Counted from the stretch's first letter, positions 1,230-25,138 are shown. The stretch: DNA of 35,168 bases from a virus (IMGVR_UViG_3300042691_011108:1-35168); one strand, 5' to 3'. The notes: a model not told the origin generated them from the letters alone. Translations and numbers: made by a program.

Positions 1230-2534
1230 TCAGGCCTTGATCTTCAGGTAGCGGAACGCATCGAGCACGCTCACATCCGAAGCGTGGCGGCTGAATGCGA
1301 AGTAGCCAGTCTGGTTATCCGCGAGGTAGGTCTCGCGAGCAACCTTCACAGACACCGACTCGCGCTCGCCGATGTGGAAGTAGTCGAAGTTGCCGAAGAC
1401 ACCAGTGATCGCACCGCCAGCGAAGGCGTTGCCGCCGTTGCAGCAGTAGATCGGGTAACCCAGCAGACGATCCGGCTCGCCATCCTGCAGACGACCGTCA
1501 CCGAGCGACCACGCGAACGGAGCGTAAGAACCGCCGCCGCTGGTCGTGATCGAAGTGGCCTGCAGCAGAGCGCGAATCTTGAAGAACATCGCGTCCGTCA
1601 TCACCCACGCAGCACCAGCACGATACTGACGAGGAAGTGCAGCGATCACATTGAGCAGATCGTTTGCCACCACGGTGCTGGCAGTTGCGGTCTCAACAGC
1701 AGTGATCACGCGAGTTGCGGTGAACGAGAAGATGCCCTTCGGGTTGGGCGCAGTGCCGTTGCCAGTGCAGAAGGCGTTCTCTTCCTTCTCACCCATCGCC
1801 TTGCCGAACTGACGCGCAAGGATCGACTCGACATTGAACGCAGGGCCACGGCTCGGTGCATCTGCGATCAGTTCGTTGCTCACCTTGGTGAAGCAGCGCA
1901 GGGTACGCGGAGTCAGCACCAACTGATCGAAGGTGCCGGAGTTCTCTGCCAGCGAATCGGCTTCGGTCTTGTAGGTCGCCGTCGGGTAGGCGTTCTCAAA
2001 GACCACTTCGGTCTCGAAGGTGCCGAGCGGGATCACATTCGCGATCTGACGCATCACATTGGCCTGGAGACGCTTCTCAACGAGCGTGGTCAGGAACTCG
2101 GTGGCGGGCAGATAGCCGCCGTTCGCGTCCGTGCCCTCTGCGAGTGCTCGCTGCTCTTCGTGACGCATATCGTTGATACCAACGCGCAGGTAGCGACCGA
2201 ATGCGCTGCGATACTCCTCGCTGTCCACGAACTTGCGCAGCGCGTTGCCACGCTTGCCCTCGGTGCGATCCTTGCTGATTGCGTCAGCCCGACGATCCAT
2301 CGTCTTGGTCGCCAGAGCCTGCGCATCGAGGAAGCGGTAGTGCTGATCACGCATGGTGATCAGTTCGCTCAGCCGAGCGTTCATGCTGTTGTACTGCGCT
2401 TCCTTCTCTCCGGTCATGGGCTGTCCGGCTTCGGACATACCCTCAACCATCGACTTCATCATCTCGTAGACCTTGCCGATCTCGTCGGTGATCTCACGGA
2501 TGCTCATCTTCTTCGTCTCGCCAGTGCTGTCCAT
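1230..2534 (-). CDS. Major capsid protein, HK97 fold (copy with scaffold-like N-terminus)
   Basis: The first ~110 residues are helical and charged, consistent with an HK97 delta (scaffolding) domain removed by the prohead protease. They are followed by the canonical core: a G-G-Y-L-P start near 140, an N-arm/E-loop stretch, KVSNELIAD in the spine region, a LLGYPIYCCN strand, and a DNQTGYFAF strand near the C-terminus. The usual lysine/asparagine crosslinking cannot be judged. AAGGAG lies 7 bases before the ATG at 2534 but only 1 base before an earlier in-frame ATG at 2540, so 2534 is the likelier start. It lies 18-24 bases downstream of a second, related capsid gene. A strong hairpin follows its stop. 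Confidence 0.92.
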   Translation of the reverse strand: MDSTGETKKMSIREITDEIGKVYEMMKSMVEGMSEAGQPMTGEKEAQYNSMNARLSELITMRDQHYRFLDAQALATKTMDRRADAISKDRTEGKRGNALRKFVDSEEYRSAFGRYLRVGINDMRHEEQRALAEGTDANGGYLPATEFLTTLVEKRLQANVMRQIANVIPLGTFETEVVFENAYPTATYKTEADSLAENSGTFDQLVLTPRTLRCFTKVSNELIADAPSRGPAFNVESILARQFGKAMGEKEENAFCTGNGTAPNPKGIFSFTATRVITAVETATASTVVANDLLNVIAALPRQYRAGAAWVMTDAMFFKIRALLQATSITTSGGGSYAPFAWSLGDGRLQDGEPDRLLGYPIYCCNGGNAFAGGAITGVFGNFDYFHIGERESVSVKVARETYLADNQTGYFAFSRHASDVSVLDAFRYLKIKA

Positions 2535-2558
2535 CTTCATGCTCCTTGGGGTGTTGAA

Positions 2559-3665
2559 TCAGGCTCCGGGCGACACGAGTGCCCAACCTGCAGTTGATTC
2601 CATGAACGATCCAGCTGCGCGATACGCCGCATGGATCACGGTCTGATTGTTGCTCATTCGTGACTCGCTGTCCAGTTTGACTGTCAGTGGCTGATCGAAG
2701 TGCAGCCACGCCGTCATATCGACGAGCATTGCCCACGCAGCGCCAGCCTCATTGTGAACCGCAGCCATACCAGTCGAAGTGTGAATCGGGCAGCCGAGGT
2801 ATGCGGTGTGCCACATATCGTTCGTTGGAGATGCAGCCTTCAAAGCCGATCGCTTCTCCAGCTTCACTGACGACGACAGTTCCTGCTCGCCTCCACCGCC
2901 GCCTTCTTCAGCAGGCGCACCGACTGCCCAGTTAGGCGTTCCTCCCTCACCCGGCGAGGTGATCTCACCCGAGTTGTATGCGCCACTGAACTGACCGATG
3001 GCGTTGCTCAACGCAGCAGATGGCGTATTGGTCTCACCGATCAGGCGTCGATAGAGGTAGTCCTCTTGACGCACGCCAAGCGTAGACAGCGTGTTGCGAC
3101 CTTCCTGCGTTCCCCAGTTCTCCGCGCCGCTCGGTGAGAAAATCCAACACGCGCGCTGACGATAGGTGTTGCTCAAGTTGGCCCAGCACTTGAAGCCACT
3201 GTGGTCGCTGATGCCAGTAGTCGCACCAGTGCCGATCTTACCGATGTCAAAGTGATCGGCCTCGGTGTAGCGACTGGCGGTGACAAGCGCAGTTCGGATG
3301 TCCGTCACGATCTTTGCCGCGACGACCTCCGCGATCTGTCCTGCGAGACGCTGCGCGATGAACGGATACACGGCCGAGTCGGCAAGCAGTTCGTTGCTGA
3401 CGGTGATGCTGGCGCGATAGGTCGCGAGATCACTGCTATGAAGACCGAATGTTGGATCGAATGCGCTCGCGTTGCTTGCGGCTCCTTCAGCCACAGTCGC
3501 AATCGAGCCAGAAGTCGCAGTCGTCGCATACGGGTAGATCATGCCGCGAGGGCCAGTCGCTCGCGAGATGTAAGACATCGGGAAGGTGTCGTACAGACGC
3601 AGCCACGCCATCTCTGCGATTGCGCGTGGTGCGAGTTGACCGTTGCCGCTGTTAGACAGTGCCAT
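2559..3665 (-). CDS. Second HK97-fold capsid protein (paralogue without delta domain)
   Basis: This 368-residue protein shares the HK97 capsid pattern with the next gene: an AEG...FDPTFGL segment followed by TVSNELLADSA (compare KVSNELIAD in the neighbour), a YLGCPIHT strand (compare LLGYPIYC), and an NNQT motif near the C-terminus (compare DNQT). It lacks the long helical delta domain and starts almost directly with the core. It carries a Gly-rich insertion near residues 240-265 with a run of five glycines. It may build part of the shell, a hexamer/penton variant, or a decoration-like component. The start has AAGGG 8 bases upstream and overlaps the protease gene by 14 bases, which fixes its place in the head operon. 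Confidence 0.75.
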   Translation of the reverse strand: MALSNSGNGQLAPRAIAEMAWLRLYDTFPMSYISRATGPRGMIYPYATTATSGSIATVAEGAASNASAFDPTFGLHSSDLATYRASITVSNELLADSAVYPFIAQRLAGQIAEVVAAKIVTDIRTALVTASRYTEADHFDIGKIGTGATTGISDHSGFKCWANLSNTYRQRACWIFSPSGAENWGTQEGRNTLSTLGVRQEDYLYRRLIGETNTPSAALSNAIGQFSGAYNSGEITSPGEGGTPNWAVGAPAEEGGGGGEQELSSSVKLEKRSALKAASPTNDMWHTAYLGCPIHTSTGMAAVHNEAGAAWAMLVDMTAWLHFDQPLTVKLDSESRMSNNQTVIHAAYRAAGSFMESTAGWALVSPGA

Positions 3666-4306: not shown

Positions 4307-5908
4307 TCAATCAGCCTTCGCCTTGAGCCGATCCACGATGGACTTGCTCCAAGTGAATCCTGCGTCTCCACCCCACAACGCCCACGCGATGCGACCGTTG
4401 CTCGGGAACCCGTCCTCGCTTGGTGTGAAGCCTGTGCCCTGCTTGTCCACCTCGTGCCGAGCGAAGAACGAGTACATCCGCTTCACAGTATCGATGGGCA
4501 GGCTCTTGCCATTGACGATGTCGCGAGCACGAGCGATTCCGACTGGAGTTCCGCCGCGCTTGAACTCAGAACGCCAAGCGAGTCCACGCTTCGCTTCTTC
4601 GATCATTCCAGCTGTCGGAGTGAAAGACTTGGCTCGCTCTTGAGCGATGCCGCTGTCTGTCTCATCTGGCATATCGTCTGGCATTGCGTTCGGTGGCGCA
4701 ACCTGTGCGCCTCCGAATCCGTTGCTAGCGGGAACCATGTTGACTGGCTGCAGATACACATCGCCCAACTCGCCGATGCTGTTGCGACCGATCTCTGCAC
4801 GAATCTCATTGACCGACAGGAAGCCGAACTGCCGACCGACGCTGAACGCCTGATAGCGAGTCATCATGTCACTGCGAAGCAGTGCGTCGAAACTGATGTC
4901 TGTTGAGTAGTGCCCAGCCTCATCCTCGCGGAACAACTTGCGCAGTGCTTCCGCCTCAAGACGAGCGGCCCACGACGACAGGCAGTTGCTGACCCACTCT
5001 CGATTAGCCTGCTCTGCGCTGCTGTATGACTGCTTCGATCCAATGCCAACGACGCTCGGAGGCACGCGATAGATGCTGCAGATCTCCTCGCGTTGAAACT
5101 CACGCGACTGCAGCCACTGCGAATCCTGCGGCGACAGACTGATGGCTTGCCACTTGAGTCCTCCCTCAAGCACCGCCACGCTGCCAGCCTGCGTCGCACC
5201 ACGCATACGAGCTTCCCATGACTCGCGAATGCGTTGCAACGCATCGATGCTCAACTCCTTGTCGGTCACCAGCGCACCGCTCGGTCGACTTGCATTGCGG
5301 TAGTACGAAGCACCGAATGTTTCTTGTGCGAGCGCAAGGCCAATGGCCTGACGAGCGAGACTCACTGGCGAATATCCCAAGATGCCATCTGGCGAGAGCC
5401 ACATCAGGTGGAAGACATCGTGCGCATCGAACACCGATTCGCCCTCGCTGCCACTGTAGATGTATGCAATCTGACCAGCTCCAAGACGGATGACCTGCAT
5501 CAGATCTGGCCGCATGTAGTGCAGTCCAATCGGCCTGCCAGCAGCGTCTCGTTCAATCAGGCTGTATCCGTTGCCCGTCAAGCACGCAGACATCAACATG
5601 AGTTCTCGCCACACAAGTGCGGTCGTGTCCTTGTTCGCTGCACGCGACAACAGGCGATGCACAGGATGCTCCTGCGCCACAGTCCTGCCGCCACCTTCAT
5701 GCTTCATCACGCTCCAAGGAAGCTTGGCAAGCTCAGTTGAGATTGCCTGCACGCACGCATTCACGGTGGTGCAGTTCATCGCCGCCTGCGGCGTGATTGG
5801 CTGTCCGGTGTCAGAATACAGACCCGTGTAGATCTGAGAACCAGACAGTGGAACTCCGGGCTGCGTCGTTGACTTGAACCTTCGCTTGAGCCAGTCTGTC
5901 AGAGCCAT
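4307..5908 (-). CDS. Portal protein (HK97 family) with extra C-terminal module
   Basis: Residues 1 to about 390 follow the HK97-type portal pattern: an MNCTTVNACVQAISTELAKL segment near 44-63, LTGNGYSLIERD near 110-121, a YYRNASRPSGAL motif, and EEICSIYRVPPSVVG in the clip/stem region. The protein forms the dodecameric DNA channel and binds terminase. After a Pro/Met/Asp-rich linker near 400-415, the last ~120 residues form a separate module (EEAKRGLAWRSEF, GTPVGIARARDIVNG, MYSFFARHEVDK, RIAWALWGGDAGFTWS). I know this pattern from other phage head genes, where it occurs with portal or protease regions; its function is unknown. The gene overlaps the terminase by 10 bases. Confidence 0.88.
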   Translation of the reverse strand: MALTDWLKRRFKSTTQPGVPLSGSQIYTGLYSDTGQPITPQAAMNCTTVNACVQAISTELAKLPWSVMKHEGGGRTVAQEHPVHRLLSRAANKDTTALVWRELMLMSACLTGNGYSLIERDAAGRPIGLHYMRPDLMQVIRLGAGQIAYIYSGSEGESVFDAHDVFHLMWLSPDGILGYSPVSLARQAIGLALAQETFGASYYRNASRPSGALVTDKELSIDALQRIRESWEARMRGATQAGSVAVLEGGLKWQAISLSPQDSQWLQSREFQREEICSIYRVPPSVVGIGSKQSYSSAEQANREWVSNCLSSWAARLEAEALRKLFREDEAGHYSTDISFDALLRSDMMTRYQAFSVGRQFGFLSVNEIRAEIGRNSIGELGDVYLQPVNMVPASNGFGGAQVAPPNAMPDDMPDETDSGIAQERAKSFTPTAGMIEEAKRGLAWRSEFKRGGTPVGIARARDIVNGKSLPIDTVKRMYSFFARHEVDKQGTGFTPSEDGFPSNGRIAWALWGGDAGFTWSKSIVDRLKAKAD

Positions 5909-18104: not shown

Positions 18105-18319
18105 CGTGAACCTCGCACTTCTCGCAGCTGCGCTCCGATGCGTCGTGCCTCTCGCCGCCACCATTCACGCGATGCAGCACCGACATCACCGCGATAGATC
18201 CATGTGATGCCTCCATCGCGTGACTCTGATGCGACATACCCGCGACCGTATGGGTCGCCGTTGCTACGAAGTTCTAACACCACCTTGAGCGGTCGTCGCT
18301 CTACTGATTCTGCTTTCAT
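18101..18319 (-). CDS. Small beta-rich protein of unknown function
   Basis: A 72-residue protein from the ATG at 18319, with AAAGGA 6 bases upstream. The middle (GRGYVASESRDGGITWIYRG) reads as a beta hairpin or sheet, and the C-terminus is a basic helix (SREWWRREARRIGAQL). It is coupled to the HTH gene by ATGA and preceded by a 12-codon ORF ending in ATGA. It resembles small phage proteins of about 70 residues with a Y-x-S-x-x-G-x-x-W pattern, but no function can be given. Confidence 0.65.
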   Translation of the reverse strand: MKAESVERRPLKVVLELRSNGDPYGRGYVASESRDGGITWIYRGDVGAASREWWRREARRIGAQLREVRGSR

Positions 18320-18354
18320 ACACAGTCCTTTCTTGTTTGGTAATCTGTCTTCAT
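18316..18354 (-). CDS. 12-codon upstream ORF coupled to the following gene
   Basis: ATG at 18354 with AAGGA 4 bases upstream, reading MKTDYQTRKDCV and stopping with a TGA that overlaps the next gene's ATG (ATGA). The next gene's ribosome site lies inside this ORF, so ribosomes finishing it could unmask or re-initiate at that gene. It may be a leader peptide or a chance ORF. Confidence 0.35.
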   Translation of the reverse strand: MKTDYQTRKDCV

Positions 18355-18370
18355 CGCGTCCTTGCACGCA

Positions 18371-18402
18371 GGGGAGGCGGTCGTGTCGGCGGCCGCCTCC
18401 CC
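18371..18402 (-). other. Strong GC-rich hairpin after the DUF932 gene
   Basis: A perfect 10-bp inverted repeat GGGGAGGCGG / CCGCCTCCCC with a 12-base loop, starting 8 bases after the DUF932 stop. No T-run follows on the minus strand, so it is probably an mRNA-stability or processing element rather than a terminator. Confidence 0.55.
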
Positions 18403-18410
18403 ACTCACAG

Positions 18411-19274
18411 TCAATCTTCAACGCCACCGACATCGAGCACGCTGGCCTCTTCAGCGTTGCCCACGAACCCATCCAACAAACCGATGAGGCGACTCGTGCG
18501 CTTCGGGCTTGCCATCGGCGATGGCTTCTGCTTCTCCACCTCCGTGAAGGCGTTCAGCAGTCGCCACGCGGTCGGATCACCGAAGGCAGGGTCTTCGTCG
18601 CGGCAGCGCACAGCCAGTCCGCCCGGGCCGTCCTCGCGTCGCCACTCGCGCAGCACATGAGGCAACGCCTGCGGTGTGATCGCACGCCGATCCATTGCGC
18701 GAATCATGAAGTCATGCACCTGATCCTCACTGTCGATCACGAACTGCTTGTAGGACGCGATGCGATCCGCCTCAGCCTTCATGCCCTGAACCATGTTGCC
18801 GAATGCACCAGAGACGAGTCCTGGCATATCTCGCTCAATGAAGCGAGTGTGCTTGCGTGCGAAGCGGAACACAGACTTGCCAGTGCCACTGAACGCAAGG
18901 TTGTCGCAGACGAACACGCGCGACCCAAGGATCGCCTCTGCTGCGAATGACTTGTCGTGTGCGTTGCGGATGCCAAGAACCCACTGGTAGGTTCCATCCG
19001 TCTCAAGGCATGACTCGTCGCTCGGGCCATACGGACGCTTGATTGCGAGCAGGCCGAAGTAGCGCAGGCCATCACCGAGCAGTGCGTGCGCCTGCTCCGT
19101 TACAGTCCACCCGAGGTCAGCGATCGTCTGCTCGACCATGCGCAGAACCATCTCGTGTGCGATCGGGAAGTGCGTGTCCGTTGCATCTGGCGTGAGGACA
19201 TCGCACACCTGCTGCCTCTCGACCTGATGCGCTCCTGCGTGCAGAACCAACGATGAGTTTCCGATTGCGACCAT
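18411..19274 (-). CDS. DUF932-family protein
   Basis: A 287-residue protein from the ATG at 19274, with AAGGAG 6 bases upstream. The DUF932 pattern is clear: LGIRNAHDKSFAAEAILGSR and then VFVCDNLAFSGTG at about 95-130, followed by a helical second half with a F-x-R-x-H-T-R-F segment. The family is common in phages and plasmids, often near recombination genes; its activity is not established. It follows the first three-hairpin leader (19275-19376) and is the last of the unusual leader-linked genes before the recombination operon. Confidence 0.8.
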   Translation of the reverse strand: MVAIGNSSLVLHAGAHQVERQQVCDVLTPDATDTHFPIAHEMVLRMVEQTIADLGWTVTEQAHALLGDGLRYFGLLAIKRPYGPSDESCLETDGTYQWVLGIRNAHDKSFAAEAILGSRVFVCDNLAFSGTGKSVFRFARKHTRFIERDMPGLVSGAFGNMVQGMKAEADRIASYKQFVIDSEDQVHDFMIRAMDRRAITPQALPHVLREWRREDGPGGLAVRCRDEDPAFGDPTAWRLLNAFTEVEKQKPSPMASPKRTSRLIGLLDGFVGNAEEASVLDVGGVED

Positions 19275-19376
19275 GGGTCGCTCCTTGCTGCCGCTGTGCG
19301 GCGTTGAATGAAGTGAGTACCTGTCAACGCGACAGGCCAGCACGCCGTCACCGGACGGCGTGCGTGGCTTGCTTCG
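19275..19376 (-). repeat. Three-hairpin leader, unit A
   Basis: Between a stop codon and the DUF932 ribosome site, the minus strand holds three stems. The first is GCCA-C-GCACGCCGTC / GACGGCGTGC-TGGC (19336-19368, loop CGGT, one bulged C). The second is CCTGTC-GCGTT-GACAGG. The third is GCCGC-ACA-GCGGC (19290-19302), directly before AAGGAG. A TCACTTCATTCAAC linker joins stems two and three. No T-run is present. Five further copies occur upstream. Confidence 0.9.
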
Positions 19377-19907
19377 TTATGGCTTTGGCATCCAGCGATC
19401 TCGGTCGACCACCTTCGCATCACGAGTCCGGTGCTGATCCATGTCAATGAACTCCGCACAGCATCCGGGCGGAATGTCACGAACAGCGTCTCGCAGCACC
19501 TGCTTCCACAGCTTCACCATCAACTCGGCATCGCTGTAGGAGTCTGTGTTGATGAGGAATGTGCCGAGGTCTGCGAGGCCTTCAATCGTGTCGATCAGGC
19601 ACGCGCGAAGTCCGAGTGCGTTGTTCTGAGCGAGGCTTGCGGCGTATGCCTCCGCTTCGCTCATAGACTCTGGCAAGATGTCATGCACGCAGACCAACTT
19701 CAACTTCTCAGCATCAGTGGTGATCGGTGCCATCTCAAAGTCCCACTTCAGCGTCGCAGCCATCTCCGGAATGCCAGTCTGCACCAGTTGCGCGATGCCT
19801 TCGCGACGCGCGAACAACAGCTTCTCGCGATCAACTCGCTTCCTCTCGCGACCGAAGCCATACTGATTGAACTGCGTGCTGACCATCTGTTCCTTGCTTG
19901 CTACCAT
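19377..19907 (-). CDS. Early-region protein of unknown function (176 aa)
   Basis: From the ATG at 19907 (AAGGA 7 bases upstream). It is soluble and acidic in the middle with a basic N-terminus (YGFGRERKRVDREKLLF). There are no clear domain motifs. Segments such as SLAQNNALGLRACLIDTIEG and DAELMVKLWKQVLRDAV look helical. A longer frame to 19928 would start inside the third leader hairpin and is not favoured. It sits between two copies of the three-hairpin leader, like its neighbours, which suggests independent cassette-like placement. Confidence 0.65.
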   Translation of the reverse strand: MVASKEQMVSTQFNQYGFGRERKRVDREKLLFARREGIAQLVQTGIPEMAATLKWDFEMAPITTDAEKLKLVCVHDILPESMSEAEAYAASLAQNNALGLRACLIDTIEGLADLGTFLINTDSYSDAELMVKLWKQVLRDAVRDIPPGCCAEFIDMDQHRTRDAKVVDRDRWMPKP

Positions 19908-20005
19908 GTGACAATCCTTCTGCCGCATTGCGGCGTTGTGTAGTGAACATCCTGCACGATGCAGGCCAGCACGCCGTCACTGGACGGCGTGCGTGGCTTG
20001 CTTCG
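19908..20005 (-). repeat. Three-hairpin leader, unit B
   Basis: Same order as unit A on the minus strand: GCCA-C-GCACGCCGTC / GACGGCGTGC-TGGC with loop CAGT, then CCTGCA-TCG-TGCAGG, a TTCACTACACAAC linker, GCCGC-AAT-GCGGC, and AGAAGGA as ribosome site. The second stem differs in sequence from unit A but keeps pairing. Confidence 0.9.
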
Positions 20006-20287
20006 TTACTCGCCAGCAAGTTCTGCAGATCGCTTGTCGAGCCATCGCTTCGCAGCGACATCGAGCGGCTCAAGCACGACCAGCGGTGGATCCCATCCGA
20101 GGTCGCGTGCGATCTCTGTTGGGCTGGTCGCACCGCGCGACAGCGACTGCAGGATGCGCTCGCAGTCCTTGCCAAGTCGAAGCCGACGCAACGCGACCAC
20201 CGCGTACTCCTCGTTCGCCTTCATGTCCTTCGCCGCCTTGCTGCGAAGGCAGTGCATCAGATGCTCAAAGTGCTTGCTACCCATCAT
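20006..20287 (-). CDS. Small early-region protein of unknown function (93 aa)
   Basis: Starts at the double ATG 20287/20284 with AAGGAG 6 bases upstream and overlaps the HTH gene's stop. The N-terminal half is basic and helical (LRSKAAKDMKANEEYAVVAL). The second half contains RGATSPTEIARDLGWDPP, which could be a short winged-helix-like segment (T-S-P-T-E-I-A-R-D-L), so a DNA-binding role is possible but unproven. It is followed by leader unit B. Confidence 0.65.
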   Translation of the reverse strand: MMGSKHFEHLMHCLRSKAAKDMKANEEYAVVALRRLRLGKDCERILQSLSRGATSPTEIARDLGWDPPLVVLEPLDVAAKRWLDKRSAELAGE

Positions 20288-20487
20288 GCGAGGCTCCTTG
20301 TCGTGTTGAGTTTCTTGAGTGCCGATCGCAACTTGCGAATGGCTGTTGATTCGTGCGAGCGAACCGCATTGACACTGATCCCGAGCATGGCTGCGACCTG
20401 CTCGCTGCTGCGAACAGGCTGCAGGTGCGCACGCCACCAGTCAGGCCGCAATGCGATAGATGGTGCGCAGCACTTATGACTTCGCAT
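20284..20487 (-). CDS. Sigma-region-4/LuxR-type helix-turn-helix protein
   Basis: A 67-residue protein from the ATG at 20487, with GGAGG 6 bases upstream. Its second half reads SSEQVAAMLGISVNAVRSHE followed by STAIRKLRSALKKL, the classic sigma70 region 4 or LuxR-type HTH plus C-terminal basic helix. The N-terminal ~30 residues contain a P-D-W-W-R-A-H motif. Without a region 2 it cannot be a full sigma factor. It could be a transcription activator, a sigma appropriator or an ECF-like fragment. It overlaps both neighbours by 4-14 bases. Confidence 0.7.
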   Translation of the reverse strand: MRSHKCCAPSIALRPDWWRAHLQPVRSSEQVAAMLGISVNAVRSHESTAIRKLRSALKKLNTTRSLA

Positions 20488-21001
20488 TGGTCGCCTCCGT
20501 GTTGGTACGAAGCAGTGCGACTGCGAGCGCGGCCACGAACGCATCATTCTTGACCAGACGCTGCGCAAGCACCTCTGCCCATCCCTCGCGCTGTGATTCG
20601 ATCTGCTCCATGATCTGCTCAATGCAGTCATCCTTGATGTCATCGCCAATCGTCTCGACGATCTCGTCCGTGACATTGCTCACGCTGATGTCATCGATCA
20701 CGCTCGTGGCAACTTCGGTCTCGATGTCGCTGGTGTTGATGTTCTCAGCGATCTCGCGAGCGATATCTGACTCGTCGACATCTGTGTTCTCGATCAGTGC
20801 GTGCCGGACATCTCGCGCAATGCCTTCCAGATCAATCGCATCCATGATGCGCTCGCTGACATCGCTGTGCATCTGGTCGATGTCCATCAGTTCAACGCAG
20901 TCATCGATGCAGCACTGCACGAATGATGCGTCAGCGTGCGCCCACATGAATGCTGCGAAGCGGGTCTGCATGGCACGGTACAAGGTGGTGATGAAACGCA
21001 T
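20474..21001 (-). CDS. Acidic, repetitive helical early protein (175 aa)
   Basis: From the ATG at 21001 (GGAG 6 bases upstream). After a basic N-terminus (MRFITTLYRAMQTRF) the protein is dominated by repeated acidic amphipathic stretches such as DVDESDIAREIAENI, DEIVETIGDDIKDD and CIEQIMEQIESQREG, in which D/E pairs alternate with Ile and Val. There are no catalytic motifs. Its strongly negative surface could let it mimic DNA or bind a basic host protein, but that is only composition-based. A small Ala-rich C-terminus ends in NAKS. It is preceded by leader unit C. Confidence 0.65.
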   Translation of the reverse strand: MRFITTLYRAMQTRFAAFMWAHADASFVQCCIDDCVELMDIDQMHSDVSERIMDAIDLEGIARDVRHALIENTDVDESDIAREIAENINTSDIETEVATSVIDDISVSNVTDEIVETIGDDIKDDCIEQIMEQIESQREGWAEVLAQRLVKNDAFVAALAVALLRTNTEATNAKS

Positions 21002-21111
21002 AACGATCTCCTGCCGCTGTGCGGCACTAGATGATGAAGTGAGATGAGTGATGATCCTGCGACGATGCAGGCCAGCACGCCGTCTGATGACGGCGTGCGT
21101 GGCTTGGGTCG
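21002..21111 (-). repeat. Three-hairpin leader, unit C
   Basis: On the minus strand: GCCA-C-GCACGCCGTC / GACGGCGTGC-TGGC with loop ATCA, CCTGC-ATCGTC-GCAGG, an extended linker (TCACTCATCTCACTTCATC), GCCGC-ACA-GCGGC, then CAGGAG. The linker is about 13 bases longer than in other units. Confidence 0.9.
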
Positions 21112-21477
21112 TCACTCCGAGACAGCTGCGATGCGCTTGACCTCGCTCGCACACTCACGCTCAAGTGCCTTGCTCATCTTGCTCAAGAACTGCTTGCGAG
21201 TCTTGTTGGACACATTCGTGCTCAGGCCGATGTGATCCGTCAGATCCTGGCGCGTGATGGATGACCAGCCCTCGTCGCTGTAGACGCGACCGATGCACTG
21301 CAGTCGCACGAGCCACTCTTCCACATTCTTCGCGCTGATCTCTCCGAGGTCGACTGCCATCGTGGAGAAGATGAGAGTGTGCGTGATGCCTCGCATCACT
21401 TCGTCGCCAGACGAGTCCTTGCGCCAGCAGGTGGTCTCGGTGTTGGCGATCTTGCTCAGGTTCCAGTTCAGGCTCAT
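21112..21477 (-). CDS. Early-region protein of unknown function (121 aa)
   Basis: From the ATG at 21477. The Shine-Dalgarno is weak (AATGGA, 6-7 bases away), unlike its neighbours. The sequence is mixed helical/beta (LNWNLSKIANTETTCW, SAKNVEEWLVRLQCIG), with a basic helix near the C-terminus (NKTRKQFLSKMSKALERE). No family recognised. It lies between leader units C and D. Confidence 0.6.
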   Translation of the reverse strand: MSLNWNLSKIANTETTCWRKDSSGDEVMRGITHTLIFSTMAVDLGEISAKNVEEWLVRLQCIGRVYSDEGWSSITRQDLTDHIGLSTNVSNKTRKQFLSKMSKALERECASEVKRIAAVSE

Positions 21478-21575
21478 GGCGTGTCCATTCTGCGGCTGTG
21501 CCGCGTTGATGTAGTGAGTCCTGCGAAGTTGCAGGCCAGCACGCCGTCATGCGACGGCGTGCGTGGCTTGTCACT
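21478..21575 (-). repeat. Three-hairpin leader, unit D
   Basis: On the minus strand: GCCA-C-GCACGCCGTC / GACGGCGTGC-TGGC with loop GCAT, CCTGC-AACTTC-GCAGG, an ACTCACTACATCAAC linker, then GCGGC-ACA-GCCGC. The last stem is the mirror image of units A-C (GCCGC / GCGGC), a compensatory double change. The ribosome site after it is weak (AATGGA). Confidence 0.9.
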
Positions 21576-22013
21576 TCACTTCGTATAGAACGACAAGAAC
21601 TCGCGCACGCGGTCCTTGCTGAACACTTCAACGATTGATGCGTTGACTCCCTTCTTAGCCACATACTGATGCACTGTGCAGCATCCGATGTGTTCACACT
21701 CGCGGAGCATCGTCCAGAGCAGGTCGTAGCGACTGTGTGCGCGTGCAGCTTCAATCATCTGCTGCAGCAGGTGCTTCATCCAACAGTCAATCGCACCGAG
21801 CGCGTAAGCCGTAGTGATCTGGCCGAGCAGGCTCTCGCGTGCTGCGAACCGATCCTGCTCTGTGTAGCCATCCATGCACGACGCTGTGATTCCCATCTGC
21901 CGCCACATCAGAGGCAGTCGCTCTGCCAGTTGATCGCGCTTGATGTTCCATTCCAAGTTGCTGTATTCCGTGGTCTGATAGGTTGCAGATGCCTTGTTGG
22001 TCTTGCGTGCCAT
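21576..22013 (-). CDS. Early-region protein of unknown function (145 aa)
   Basis: From the ATG at 22013, with AAGGAG 7 bases upstream, beginning MARKTNKAS. The rest is helical: WNIKRDQLAERLPLMWRQMG and ALGAIDCWMKHLLQQMIEAA, with a C-x-x-x-H-x-G-C-C pattern near residue 110 that may bind metal or form disulfides. The same leader start (MARK plus identical upstream bases) occurs at the next gene upstream. No family recognised. Confidence 0.65.
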   Translation of the reverse strand: MARKTNKASATYQTTEYSNLEWNIKRDQLAERLPLMWRQMGITASCMDGYTEQDRFAARESLLGQITTAYALGAIDCWMKHLLQQMIEAARAHSRYDLLWTMLRECEHIGCCTVHQYVAKKGVNASIVEVFSKDRVREFLSFYTK

Positions 22014-22132
22014 AGTGAATCTCCTTGCGGCGGATGCCGCGTTGATGTAGTGAGTCCTGCGAAGTTGCAGGCCAGCCATCCGTCGCGTGACGGATGGCGT
22101 GGCTTGTCACCTCTGCGACGCTGTGTGTTGTA
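22014..22132 (-). repeat. Three-hairpin leader, unit E
   Basis: On the minus strand: GCCA-C-GCCATCCGTC / GACGGATGGC-TGGC with loop ACGC, where three base pairs differ from units A-D and all are compensated; CCTGC-AACTTC-GCAGG; the ACTCACTACATCAAC linker; GCGGC-ATCC-GCCGC; then AAGGAG. The distance from the stop to stem one is ~20 bases longer than elsewhere. Confidence 0.9.
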
Positions 22133-22486
22133 TCAATCGCACTTCGCCAACCTGCGAGTCGCGGTGATGTCGAACTTGAGCAGAGCTTCAATGCTCGCAG
22201 CAGCTCGTTCTTGTGCTGCGTCTGCCAGCTTCTCAACCCTGTTGAAGATGGCGTCTTCTTGACGGTGACGCTTGTCAGCGGCATCTTCTTCTGCGCCAGT
22301 GAACGCACTCATGTACATCTGCCATGCCCTGCGCTCATTCGCGTCTGCCACTGCGAGCCTCTTGACGAGGTCTGCAGCGTTCTCGAATGCTTCGAGCATC
22401 TTGACGATTCGGCCTTCGTAAGCCGCGTCGAGTGCGAGGATGCGGCGAGCGATGTTGCGAGTGTCGGACTTGATCTTGCGTGCCAT
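22133..22486 (-). CDS. Helical early-region protein of unknown function (117 aa)
   Basis: From the ATG at 22486, with AAGGAG 7 bases upstream. Starts MARKIKSDTRNIARRI and continues as a nearly all-helical, charged protein (AYEGRIVKMLEAFENAADLV, ERRAWQMYMSAF, a long D-A-A-D-K-R-H-R-Q-E-D stretch). Probably a helical bundle. It appears to be the first sizeable gene of the early operon. No function recognised. Confidence 0.65.
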   Translation of the reverse strand: MARKIKSDTRNIARRILALDAAYEGRIVKMLEAFENAADLVKRLAVADANERRAWQMYMSAFTGAEEDAADKRHRQEDAIFNRVEKLADAAQERAAASIEALLKFDITATRRLAKCD

Positions 22487-22580
22487 AGTGAATCTCCTTG
22501 CGGCGGATGCCGCTCTGATGTGGTGTTTCTTGTTCCGCGAACAAGAACCAGCCAGCCGTCTGACATGACGGCTGGCGTGG
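22487..22580 (-). repeat. Three-hairpin leader, unit F
   Basis: On the minus strand: ACCA-C-GCCAGCCGTC / GACGGCTGGC-TGGT with a six-base loop ATGTCA. The lowest G-C pair is replaced by A-T and upper pairs differ from units A-E, with pairing kept throughout. Stem two is TTCTTGTT-CGCGG-AACAAGAA, unrelated in sequence to the others. Stem three is GCGGC-ATCC-GCCGC, then AAGGAG. Confidence 0.88.
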
Positions 22581-22625
22581 TTAGTCTTCGCGTTCTTCCT
22601 GTTCGATCTGTTCCTTGCAGGTCAC
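22581..22625 (-). CDS. Possible 14-codon ORF ahead of leader unit F
   Basis: GTG at 22625 with GGGAG 6 bases upstream, reading VTCKEQIEQEERED and stopping at TAA five bases before hairpin one of unit F. All other units start just after a gene's stop codon, which supports this as a real reading frame or the remnant of a longer gene. Too short to say more. Confidence 0.35.
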   Translation of the reverse strand: MTCKEQIEQEERED

Positions 22626-23031
22626 TGCCCGCTCCCAACTGATCGGCTCTGACCTCGATCACGCTGGCGGTACTACTGCTTGGAACTCTGTTCTGCGCTT
22701 CGCTCTGCGTTGAAGGGGCGGGTCGTTGCTGTTCGCTATCGCCTGTCCTTCGCTGCGGTGCTCGCGCGTGCTTGTCCGACTGGGTGCTTGCTGCGTCTGA
22801 GGGGGAAAGTGGTCGGCTCCACTCGCGTACGAGTCTTGCCGTCAGTCCTGCCTCACCTCGCCGTCCGGAGTCTTCGCTTCACGCTCGTCCGTTCTGTGCG
22901 GGGCTGCTCGCCGTTCCCGGTTGCGCTTGTTCGGAGCGCCGGGTGGCGTTGCACTTGGTATCCAGTCGGGATGTCAAAGATCGAACGCAGGACATTGTGG
23001 CACAAAACCCTAGCCAATGCAACAGGCTTGT
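22626..23031 (-). promoter_or_regulatory. Non-coding leader/promoter region heading the early arm
   Basis: About 400 bases with no convincing gene. On the plus strand it is strikingly poor in A and rich in C, G and T (roughly 22640-22940). On the minus (transcript) strand this means a U-poor, purine-rich leader. Motifs such as CTTCGCT and TGCTTG recur without a clear unit. A candidate promoter sits at its right end. A plus-strand reading frame crosses it but has low-complexity Arg/Leu/Val content and no ribosome site. An origin or a long 5' leader is possible. Confidence 0.45.
22994..23022 (-). promoter_or_regulatory. Candidate sigma-70-type promoter for the early operon
   Basis: On the minus strand, TTGCAT and CACAAT are separated by exactly 17 bases, with TGC just before the -10 box (extended -10). 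Start of transcription would be near 22987, between the last gene of the late arm and the first genes of the early arm. Each box matches consensus only partly. Confidence 0.5.
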
Positions 23032-23544
23032 TTATGAGGCTTTTTTCACCCGCTGAAATGCCGCGTCGAACTCCCTGTCTGTGCCTCGCTTCATCGCAAC
23101 GAACTCACGCACCGTTTCAGGTGCGTCTGATGCGAGCGTAGCCGCTGCCATCTCTGCTTCATTCACCTTGCGCCTCGGGATCCATCCGATAGCAACGCGT
23201 ATCGCGGACAGCGCACCACTCGCAGTCAGAAGCCATACACAACACGCACCTGCTGCAGCTACAGCGAGCCAGGTCAACATGGTCATCCACGCAGGAACGA
23301 CATCTCGCACTCCCGGCAGTGCTCCATGTATGTCCGTCACCTCGTAGCGAATCTGCTCGGCCTCGGAGCGCACGATTTGAACATCAGGCGACTCAGAGTC
23401 CATTCGATCAGTCGCATCAATGATCGCGTCTGCACTCTCACGAATGCTGCTGGCCTTCTGTGCGATGCGATGCGACGCGCTGCAGCCACTCGCCACCGCA
23501 ATGGCGAGGGCTGCAACGCAAGCGAGTGGGCGACCAGTGATCAC
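23032..23544 (-). CDS. Lipoprotein with a second membrane segment (possible lysis/spanin-type protein)
   Basis: 170 residues starting at GTG 23544, which overlaps the upstream TGA by 4 bases (GTGA). The N-terminus is a lipoprotein signal: VITGRPLACVAALAIAVASG followed directly by Cys21 (lipobox V-A-S-G-C). A soluble helical stretch follows, then a strong membrane span (WMTMLTWLAVAAAGACCVWL, about 88-118), and a charged tail. A longer frame to 23631 would add an Arg-rich non-native N-terminus and is rejected. It is the last gene before the early promoter and may bridge inner and outer membranes during lysis, but no family is recognised. Confidence 0.65.
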   Translation of the reverse strand: MITGRPLACVAALAIAVASGCSASHRIAQKASSIRESADAIIDATDRMDSESPDVQIVRSEAEQIRYEVTDIHGALPGVRDVVPAWMTMLTWLAVAAAGACCVWLLTASGALSAIRVAIGWIPRRKVNEAEMAAATLASDAPETVREFVAMKRGTDREFDAAFQRVKKAS

Positions 23545-23669
23545 TTGCGTCCGAGCCACTCGGCGACGCGACTCACGGGCACGATGTGCCCCGCGATGTA
23601 TCCAGCGAGCAGAGCGCCGACACCGAACCACACCGAACCGATCAGGCTTTCCATCGTTGCGAGCATCAT
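23541..23669 (-). CDS. 42-residue membrane protein (possible holin or small lysis protein)
   Basis: ATG at 23669 (or 23666) with AAGGAG 5-8 bases upstream, reading MMLATMESLIGSVWFGVGAL and onward through a single hydrophobic segment (LLAGYIAGHIV) to a short charged tail ending W-L-G-R-K. It overlaps the HExxH gene by 4 bases and the lipoprotein by 4 (GTGA). Small size, a single span and position in a block of membrane genes suggest a lysis role. Confidence 0.6.
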   Translation of the reverse strand: MMLATMESLIGSVWFGVGALLAGYIAGHIVPVSRVAEWLGRK

Positions 23670-23986
23670 GACTTCTCCTTTGTGTTGAGGTTGCGTGTCA
23701 TACGACATCCAGCAGCGTACAGAGCTCGTGCGATTGCGCCAGCTGTCTCTTCAACTCCATGCTCAGACATATCCGGCTGGCAAGCGTGCAGAACTTCGTG
23801 CGTGATGGTATCGATCATGTTCCTTCCAGTCAGGCTACGACGGATCTCAATGAGCGGATGACGACCCGGAGGGAAGTAGCACCTGCCCCAATCCTTGTTC
23901 ATCGCTCGTGATGGCATGAAGCGAATCGTGTAGCGACGATCTCGGATGCGAACGCTGATGCTCAGGATGCCTCTTGGAACTCGCAT
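23666..23986 (-). CDS. Small HExxH metallopeptidase-like protein
   Basis: A 106-residue protein with a zincin motif in THEVLHACQPDMSEHGVEE: H-E-x-x-H followed by E-E about 16 residues later as a possible third ligand. The N-terminus is beta-rich (LSISVRIRDRRYTIRF), and a WGRCYFPPGRHPLIEI strand precedes the motif, as in short SprT-like or phage zincin families. GGAG lies 6 bases before the ATG. It overlaps the phosphoesterase gene by 25 bases. Substrate unknown; it could be a structural, host-attack or lysis protease. Confidence 0.65.
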   Translation of the reverse strand: MRVPRGILSISVRIRDRRYTIRFMPSRAMNKDWGRCYFPPGRHPLIEIRRSLTGRNMIDTITHEVLHACQPDMSEHGVEETAGAIARALYAAGCRMTRNLNTKEKS

Positions 23987-24897
23987 TCAAGTCTCCAGAT
24001 GGAGTTGCCGTTCACCTTCTCAAGGTGCCGCATGAAGAGACGCATCCAGATTGCACCCGTTGGCTTCGGTGGCATTCCCTTCTCGGTCGCCCACCCACCG
24101 AACCCATCGCCGTGCTCTTGCTTGTAAGTCCCAGTGCGAACATGGTGCTGCGGCTCAACGGTCACGCGATAGTTGCCGTTGTTCGTCCGCAAGCGATAAC
24201 GCGCAGTCTGAAGCCACCATCGTTCATGCACATGACCACACACAAGCACATCAGCGTCGGGTTGGAACGATGCTTGCCTTCGCACTCGTAGCGTGTCGAA
24301 GGTCATCATGCCTCCGCCGCCGGAGCCATGGAAGTATGCCATCGTGAGAGTGTTGACGGTGTTGGCGACCTTTGTCTTGAACTGAATGAAGCCACCGTAG
24401 CCACCAGACAGCACTGGTGCGCCAATGCGTTCGCTCAGGCGTTCCGTCAGTCGCTCTGTGAGGTCAGTCTCTTGGTTCTTCAGCACACCTGTCTCGTGAT
24501 TGCCACGAGCGATCAACACACAACGATGCGCGAATGGTTCATAGAAGCTGGTCGCATGGCGCACGAGTGAATCAAAGTAGTCATTGGCGATTGCGTGTTC
24601 GTCGCGTGTCACACCGTGCTTGGCGCGTCTTGGATCTGCCTTGCCAGCCATTGCACAGAACAGATCACCGAAGTCAATCCATCCTGCGTTGCGCTGCTCG
24701 CACTCACGCAGATGCTTGCGCTCTAGTTCGTGGTCGCTGTGCGGGTTGTCATGGTGCGCGTCTGATCGGAGTAGGAACCACTGCTCCCATCCGGCACGCG
24801 CATCGCTTTGCATCTCGACTATGTGGATATTGCGCGTCTTCTGCTCGACGCGAAACGGAAGCGGCTTCCTCTTATCGCTTGGCTTCAAGCGTGGCAA
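23962..24897 (-). CDS. Calcineurin-like metallophosphoesterase
   Basis: Contains the five family blocks in order: LLRSDAHHDNPHSD (D-x-H), IDFGDLFCAM (G-D), LIARGNHETG (G-N-H-E), a middle TMAYFHGSGGGG, and VLVCGHVHERWW (G-H-x-H). These bind two metals and cleave phosphodiester or phosphomonoester bonds. Such enzymes are common in phages, often near tail or lysis genes, with unknown substrate. The open frame extends to 24978, but that would overlap the coiled-coil gene by 107 bases. A TTG at 24897 has GGAG 7 bases upstream and reduces the overlap to 26, so I prefer it; ATG 24813 is another option with no ribosome site. Confidence 0.78.
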   Translation of the reverse strand: MPRLKPSDKRKPLPFRVEQKTRNIHIVEMQSDARAGWEQWFLLRSDAHHDNPHSDHELERKHLRECEQRNAGWIDFGDLFCAMAGKADPRRAKHGVTRDEHAIANDYFDSLVRHATSFYEPFAHRCVLIARGNHETGVLKNQETDLTERLTERLSERIGAPVLSGGYGGFIQFKTKVANTVNTLTMAYFHGSGGGGMMTFDTLRVRRQASFQPDADVLVCGHVHERWWLQTARYRLRTNNGNYRVTVEPQHHVRTGTYKQEHGDGFGGWATEKGMPPKPTGAIWMRLFMRHLEKVNGNSIWRLECEFQEAS

Positions 24898-25138
24898 GGC
24901 GACGCTCCAGTTCCTGAAGGCGTTGTGCCGTGACCTGATCATTGCCACTGAGACTGAGCTGCGCTCGCACGAGATCACTCGTGATCGACTTTAGTTCAGT
25001 CAGTTGTCCGCTGTGCTGATCGATGGTCGCGTCCTTGCGACCAATCGATACAGCCAAGCCGCCTAGGCCAAGTGCGAAGACCGCAACTTGTACCCACGAT
25101 GCGACGGTGCGAGATACGGATGCTGCCGCTTCGGTCAT
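24872..25138 (-). CDS. Small membrane protein with coiled-coil tail
   Basis: An 88-residue protein. A short polar N-terminus is followed by one membrane span (WVQVAVFALGLGGLAVSIG, about 15-33), then a heptad-rich helix through to the end (QLTELKSITSDLVRAQLSLS, RLQELERRLATLEAKR). The layout (single span plus coiled coil) fits an inner-membrane spanin, a holin-like protein or a signal-anchor accessory protein. Lies 24 bases after the zinc-ribbon gene. Confidence 0.65.
   Translation of the reverse strand: MTEAAASVSRTVASWVQVAVFALGLGGLAVSIGRKDATIDQHSGQLTELKSITSDLVRAQLSLSGNDQVTAQRLQELERRLATLEAKR

Follow-up and report, generated by a model that had tools for sequence, protein, structure and literature searches.

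The early region of the uncultured phage recorded in IMG/VR as IMGVR_UViG_3300042691_011108:1-35168 (35,168 bases, the whole stretch being referred to here as the window) raises the question of why six of its intergenic gaps carry the same series of three hairpins and at which level these hairpins act. On the minus strand, the gene order runs from tape-measure and tail genes via the early region to a ParB-like protein, helicase, terminase, portal, and HK97-type capsid, and all six hairpin leaders are located within the early region (19275-22581, minus strand). As judged from sequence comparison, the covarying three-hairpin leaders are a real class of phage mRNA element, the function of which we infer from their fold, placement, and exchange among related phages. 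The six gaps named in the original prediction were all recovered on the minus strand; the corresponding units are given below, together with their scores in the covariance model.

22487..22581, minus strand: unit F, the first of the array, leader of the gene 22133-22486 (63.8 bits)
22581-22547, minus strand: stem 1 of unit F, ACCA C GCCAGCCGTC / GACGGCTGGC TGGT
Unit F, minus strand: stem 2, long, TCTTGTTC/GAACAAGA; stem 3, GCGGC/GCCGC
22014..22106, minus strand: unit E, leader of the gene 21576-22013 (90.9 bits)
22103-22071, minus strand: stem 1 of unit E, GCCA C GCCATCCGTC / GACGGATGGC TGGC
21478..21578, minus strand: unit D including the upstream stop, with stem 1 at 21567-21535, leader of the gene 21112-21477 (96.2 bits)
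21002..21114, minus strand: unit C including the stop, with stem 1 at 21103-21071, leader of the gene 20474-21001 (79.9 bits)
19908..20008, minus strand: unit B including the stop, with stem 1 at 19997-19965, leader of the gene 19377-19907 (85.3 bits)
19275..19379, minus strand: unit A including the stop, leader of the DUF932 gene (87.6 bits)
Unit A, minus strand: stem 1 at 19368-19336, stem 2 at 19335-19321, stem 3 at 19302-19290

Along the mRNA, the leaders follow the order of stop-codon region, stem 1, stem 2, an unpaired CACTAC-like linker, stem 3, the Shine-Dalgarno (SD) sequence, and ATG. Stem 1 is composed of 4 bp, a bulged C in the 5' arm, 10 bp, and a loop of 4-6 nt, and stem 3 comprises 5 bp reading GCGGC/GCCGC in units D, E, and F and GCCGC/GCGGC in units A, B, and C. 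The three variants of stem 1, the constant bulged C, and the switch in stem 3 were read from all six leaders as originally described, and the fold of each leader was better than that of its own dinucleotide shuffles (z -3.2 to -6.4). The description had to be corrected for unit F, since a stop codon was proposed to open every unit; unit F is instead preceded by a conserved region of about 400 nt with stops in all frames, and the TAA upstream of it is not retained in the relatives. According to the automatic gene call, unit E is located 29 nt downstream of the stop of the preceding gene, compared to 8 nt in units A-D.

Relatives were identified by a protein search with the DUF932 gene and by hairpin pattern searches. 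The DUF932 relatives were close (95%), medium (73%, 68%, and 63%), or distant (about 32%), and the hairpin patterns returned the same contigs together with a separate phage (L003/L007). Unit arrays with 5-8 copies per phage were found at the same location in the relatives down to 63%; no units were detected by the covariance model in those at about 32% (L024-L080), which indicates that the element is confined to this phage clade. Altogether, 46 units, 40 of them distinct, were gathered from about a dozen related contigs, and the distinct set was aligned.

In the alignment of the 40 units, 97.9% of the 919 cells of the three-stem structure were paired, and 89 cells were changed on both sides, compared to 24.8 in shuffles. 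The signal collapsed when the partner was slid by one column, with the covariation score decreasing from 0.299 to at most 0.070. For stem 1, 99.6% of the cells were paired, with both sides changed at 8 of its 14 pairs and one side only at none. Stems 2 and 3 covary too, the count for stem 2 being lowered by the F-type units, in which this stem is misplaced by one column in the alignment. Furthermore, RNAalifold recovered stems 1 and 3 unaided, the bulged C was present in all 40 units, and the spacer between stems 1 and 2 was zero throughout (40 of 40). A null distribution was obtained by randomly re-placing the substitutions on the branches of a FastTree unit tree (500 runs); it gave 2.5 double events on average and 7 at most, compared to 25 observed, a figure that is rough because the unit tree was built from the same short alignment. 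Selection on RNA structure, as claimed originally, is supported by this excess of double changes and by the stems kept in the relatives. Missing covariation and loss of the stems in related phages had been named as outcomes that would speak against the claim, and neither of them occurred.

A covariance model was built on the 40 units and used for searching. Additional units were recovered in L022 (5811, 4786, and 5242) and L003, and four unseen units scoring 69-77 bits were found in contig 3300042554_000913 (G001), which was reached by a new pattern. This contig is far from the phage of the window, its relative of the cassette D protein showing 37% and its DUF932 relative 38-56% identity. Stem 3 (GCCCC/GGGGC) and the ends of stem 1 of the G001 units feature letters absent from the training set, every one of them being compensated, and 98.1% of the cells were still paired after these units had been added. 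Among cultured phages and plasmids, no significant or full-length match to a unit was obtained. Pattern matches in 14 bacterial genome contigs did not form the full bulged-C stem and were regarded as chance (best score 21.8 bits), those in L005, L010, and L013 showed no stem in the structural scan, and model matches on the opposite strand (20-34 bits) represented near-palindromic stems read backwards. The model had no match across the whole records of L082, L100, and L101, nor in the stretches examined of L084, L102, L104, and L105. Rfam gave no match in the window at gathering score, the best candidate being STnc350 (E 0.27, 24 bits versus a cut-off of 60) on the wrong strand.

With respect to placement, every unit lies on the strand of the genes, bounded by the preceding sequence on one side and the SD on the other. 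In 33 of the 38 non-first units, the spacing between stem 1 and an upstream TGA or TAA, often within TGACG or TAACG, is exactly 8 nt; where a second stop lies further upstream, that one may be the true stop of the gene. The distance between the end of stem 3 and the start codon amounts to 11-15 nt in 39 of 40 units. A ribosome with the stop codon in its A site covers about 10 nt beyond it; stem 1 would start near the leading edge of the terminating ribosome, and stem 3 would be situated at the upstream edge of the initiating 30S subunit. Since the hairpins thus lie between the expected ribosome footprints, processing, stability, or translation is the most likely level of action. Short stem-3-like hairpins were also observed alone before an SD, with no stems 1 and 2, at 5540-5580 and 6830-6860 in L022 and at 4545-4575 and 3050-3075 (minus strand) in L003; considering these genes, stem 3 may be an element in its own right with a more general occurrence.

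The original statement that the units are not ordinary terminators was borne out, as stem 2 directly follows stem 1 in all units, a T-run is lacking, and the terminator-like count was at chance (3 found, 3.2 expected). A simple terminator scan flagged the stem of unit F followed by TGGTTCTTGT, but those bases belong to stem 2. A promoter inside each unit was likewise dropped, because no sigma-70-like site was detected in 18300-23700, a scan that speaks to the sigma-70 type only. The array is preceded by the following region.

22585..23020, minus strand: 5' leader of the early operon, conserved and noncoding, upstream of unit F (promoter and boxA readings made by eye)

Such a noncoding leader of about 400-500 nt was found before the first unit in all relatives (about 3030-3567 in L022, about 400 nt in the window). 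On inspection by eye, CTTTGACA, close to the 5' end of the leader, resembles a boxA, and TTGACC-17-TAATAT in L022 resembles a promoter pair. Such inspection further suggested that a long-range stem may close the leader, TTCGATC/GATCGAA in the window and TCGTC/GACGA in L020; the total folding energy of the leader was no better than that of shuffles. A strong intrinsic-terminator-like hairpin in L022 (3006-3024, CGCGTTTCC/GGAAACGCG followed by CTTTT), directly before the early promoter-like site, is positioned as though it closed the late operon.

Exceptions to the common form of stem 1 are instructive with regard to its role. In L022 (5811 and 5242) and L003 (3937), an unrelated hairpin takes the place of stem 1, capped by a TTCG or TCCG loop and lacking the single bulged C; in L022 (4786), the substitute is AT-rich. 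Stem 2 and the linker are retained. The fact that stem 1 is replaceable points to a structural and not a letter-specific role. UNCG is a stable loop in RNA and was also found in L020, L004, L003, and G001; such loops on stem 1 argue for the RNA level. The loop of stem 1 is at the same time a fast-changing part of the units, as exemplified by the following positions.

19350-19353: stem-1 tetraloop, fast loop position
19979-19982: stem-1 tetraloop, fast loop position

In orthologous units, 19 of 32 tetraloop bases differed, compared to 7.1 expected from the fourfold sites of the gene behind the unit (two independent contrasts; P about 3e-6, assuming independent sites), and the slowest changes were seen in stem 1 and the remaining leader sequence. 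Between L017 and L018, three of the four loop bases of unit A were changed, compared to none of 29 in the stem and none of 61 in the leader, at a divergence of 15% in fourfold sites. An SbcD-like metallophosphoesterase is also encoded in the window, its gene (23962-24978, minus strand) being located upstream of the early region. SbcCD enzymes open DNA hairpins, and this protein could bear on the fast loop tips.

Furthermore, traces of recombination were detected within the units. L018 is devoid of gene B, and the 200 nt upstream of its one remaining unit represent the B flank (95% to L016), while the right half of that unit (100%) and the gene behind it (99%) correspond to the A cassette of L017. 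The stem-1 loop of this unit reads ATGG, which is the loop of unit B in L016. The L016 unit at 5705, located before the MSLNW gene, is 100% identical in its left half, including the loop, to the L017 unit at 2982, whereas its right half (92%) and gene (98%) match the L017 unit at 3420. The first-position unit type remains first while the gene behind it changes. Chimeric units at two cassette losses indicate that the units are joints where cassettes are lost or exchanged. Because repeats alone could recombine, this role is taken as a consequence and not as the purpose of the units. The proposed shuffling of small genes by recombination therefore stands in this sense, and membership in the promoter-early stem-loops (PeSLs) of T4-like phages does not.

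Several explanations compete for these observations. If the units were primarily DNA recombination joints, with repeats kept for gene gain, loss, and exchange as in the case of the T4 PeSLs, the chimeric units of L018 and L016 and the constant first-position type would be expected. However, shared sequence would suffice for this purpose, leaving the covariation of three stems, the fixed bulge, and the fixed placement between stop and SD unexplained, and the varying stem 1 letters among the units of one genome lower the homology; we regard this explanation as unlikely. The units could also be recognized by an RNA-binding protein or an RNase, of phage or host origin, through which all early genes would be jointly shut off, processed, or autoregulated in the manner of a regulon, comparable to the cuts made by T4 RegB at many early SDs. 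The same element before six functionally unrelated genes, the invariant bulged C with its conserved flanking pairs, and the cutting of early intergenic regions in T4 (PMC3014915) are in agreement with this idea. As in the units, many early intergenic regions of one phage share a post-transcriptional signal in the case of T4 RegB; that enzyme, however, has GGAG as its cutting site, in most cases within an SD, and structure inhibits it, and no such enzyme or motif is implicated in the units. Since loop 1 is near random, stem 1 can be swapped for a bulge-less hairpin in L022 and L003, and no candidate protein was identified, a protein-binding site appears rather improbable. A nascent-RNA element acting on RNA polymerase, which would suppress pausing or termination along the early operon like the HK022 put RNA or a nut site, has in its favor two adjacent hairpins with a bulge, spanning about 55 nt of an early phage transcript, as well as the boxA-like motif at the start of the early leader. 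The put RNA measures about 70 nt, forms two stem-loops, and is located next to early promoters (PMC9378689), but it occurs in two copies per genome, one modification lasting for more than 10 kb, whereas 5-8 units are found at nearly every cassette border. It also contacts the polymerase specifically, while stem letters and loops of the units vary freely, stem 1 is replaceable, and the third hairpin with its link to the SD is not accounted for, which makes this option a poor candidate.

Two further explanations are concerned with DNA. The palindromes might be sites for a DNA-binding protein or single-stranded or cruciform DNA structures, in which case RNA pairing would be incidental. The almost perfect Watson-Crick pairing with few G-U pairs is compatible with this assumption, and the hypervariable tips fit cleavage and repair of DNA hairpins in a phage encoding the SbcD-like protein. 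Nevertheless, a single genome contains several different half-site sequences and only one arm carries the bulge, by which a homodimer DNA operator as the main idea was ruled out; in addition, all units are oriented with transcription and fixed relative to stop and SD, stem 3 covaries independently, and UNCG loops are favored in RNA. A DNA-level site is accordingly considered highly improbable. Template switching in palindromes during replication, without selection on structure, would produce block changes on the same branch, and 25 double versus 15 single changes with almost no intermediates were indeed counted. Such a process should erase the bulge too, yet the C is found in every unit of the alignment. 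Moreover, stems, linker, and SD spacing are fixed while the fourfold sites of neighboring genes differ by 13-33%, and the three stems and their spacing persist in G001 at about 40-55% protein identity. This explanation is unlikely, with hardly any weight left to it.

The reading we prefer, with about an even chance of being correct, is that the units are cis-acting mRNA punctuation elements, each making an early cassette an independent expression unit. On the polycistronic early mRNA, they would mark the border of each cassette, with stem 1 and the abutting stem 2 folding while the upstream gene is translated and thereby acting as a barrier to run-through, coupling, and 3' exonucleases. Cutting or entry would probably take place at the unpaired linker of the CACTAC type, and the SD would be kept open by the abutting stem 3, which would also form a cap at the 5' end of the mRNA after processing. 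Cassettes could then be gained or lost without harm to their neighbors, recombination inside the repeated units being a by-product. It is a bolder and quite tentative suggestion that the units represent a new class, namely a three-hairpin module between the footprints of terminating and initiating ribosomes that renders cassettes independent in translation and decay, serves as an exchange joint, and has a tip evolving faster than synonymous sites. Certain observations weigh against the punctuation reading. G-U intermediates are scarce in stem 1 (3 of 560 cells, plus 2 A-C), so that templated mutation at the DNA level fits as well as RNA selection. The tetraloops in the clade of the window are not of the stable kind, with no UNCG among them, and the distance between stop and stem 1 is 9-13 nt in G001, the 8-nt spacing also being broken in a few other units.

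Regarding known systems, the units are neither T4 PeSLs nor the extended start-associated sequences (ESAS) of mycobacteriophages, which are the nearest known kinds, since each lacks agreement in a defining feature, the PeSLs being compared here as described in citing papers. According to these, PeSLs of T4-like phages (Arbiol et al. 2010; Comeau et al. 2014) are promoter-terminator composites (PMC4503421). In these accounts, they resemble the units as repeated stem-loops between small genes of a plastic region that are tied to modular shuffling among related phages, and the units likewise mark borders of shuffled gene modules, as seen from the chimeric units. The PeSL, as portrayed there, has one stem, whereas the units possess three covarying stems tied to the stop codon and SD; with neither an early promoter match nor a T-run terminator in the units, PeSL membership is not supported. 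Start-associated sequences (SAS) and ESAS have been described in cluster K mycobacteriophages and cluster EF Microbacterium phages (PMC3203893, PMC7302621). Like the units, they recur in association with the starts of many genes, contain an inverted repeat upstream of them, and have a consensus that differs between subclusters. However, the 13 bp of the SAS, located at the ribosome-binding site, are strictly conserved, while the SD region of the units varies. The ESAS consists of imperfect 17-bp inverted repeats with a variable spacer directly upstream, compared to near-perfect, compensated repeats in the units. The authors stated that the departures in the two arms of the ESAS give no general support to pairing in the RNA and favored DNA-binding sites, rejecting mRNA hairpins; in contrast, the pairing of stem 1 reported here is nearly complete.

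The genes served by the units, and those following within cassette C, are as follows.

22133..22486, minus strand: cassette F gene, small and early, 117 aa (MARKIKSD...), with a Pfam match below cutoff only
21576..22013, minus strand: cassette E gene, small and early, 145 aa
21112..21477, minus strand: cassette D gene, small and early, 121 aa (MSLNWNL...)
20474..21001, minus strand: cassette C gene, early, 175 aa, followed by two overlapping genes without a unit
20284..20487, minus strand: small gene inside cassette C, sigma-70 region 4-like helix-turn-helix, overlapping its neighbors, no unit
20006..20287, minus strand: small gene overlapping the previous one (ATGATG), no unit before it
19377..19907, minus strand: cassette B gene, early, 176 aa, missing together with its unit in L018/L019
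18411..19274, minus strand: cassette A gene encoding the DUF932 protein, 287 aa, last in the array

Both unit-less junctions inside cassette C thus represent overlapping genes (20487/20474 and 20287/20284). Relatives of the cassette D protein were found behind a unit in several phages and beside the G001 units (about 37% identity), and the cassette E gene had no relative among the genes behind other units. A short helix-turn-helix gene at 6864 in L022 resembles the protein encoded at 20284-20487. Downstream of the DUF932 stop, where the array ends, the window has a long GC-rich hairpin that lacks a T-run (18370-18410, minus strand), and a hairpin of the same form and other sequence is present at the matching position in L022 (8870-8905). 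Elsewhere in the window, two adjacent genes (2559-3665 and 1230-2540, minus strand) encode proteins with matches to the HK97-type capsid family, complete for the larger protein and partial for the other one. Host assignment by means of terminase and capsid relatives gave no result, as all of these were below 40% identity and scattered over many hosts.

Repeated intergenic motifs of phages, such as PeSLs, ESAS, and stoperators, have long been described without a tested role. For the units, covariation supports the RNA fold, in held-out data as well, and their level of action is therefore open to a direct test. If the proposed insulation is true, it would explain how these phages add or drop small early genes without disturbing the neighboring ones, and the units would provide a compact natural part for operon building.

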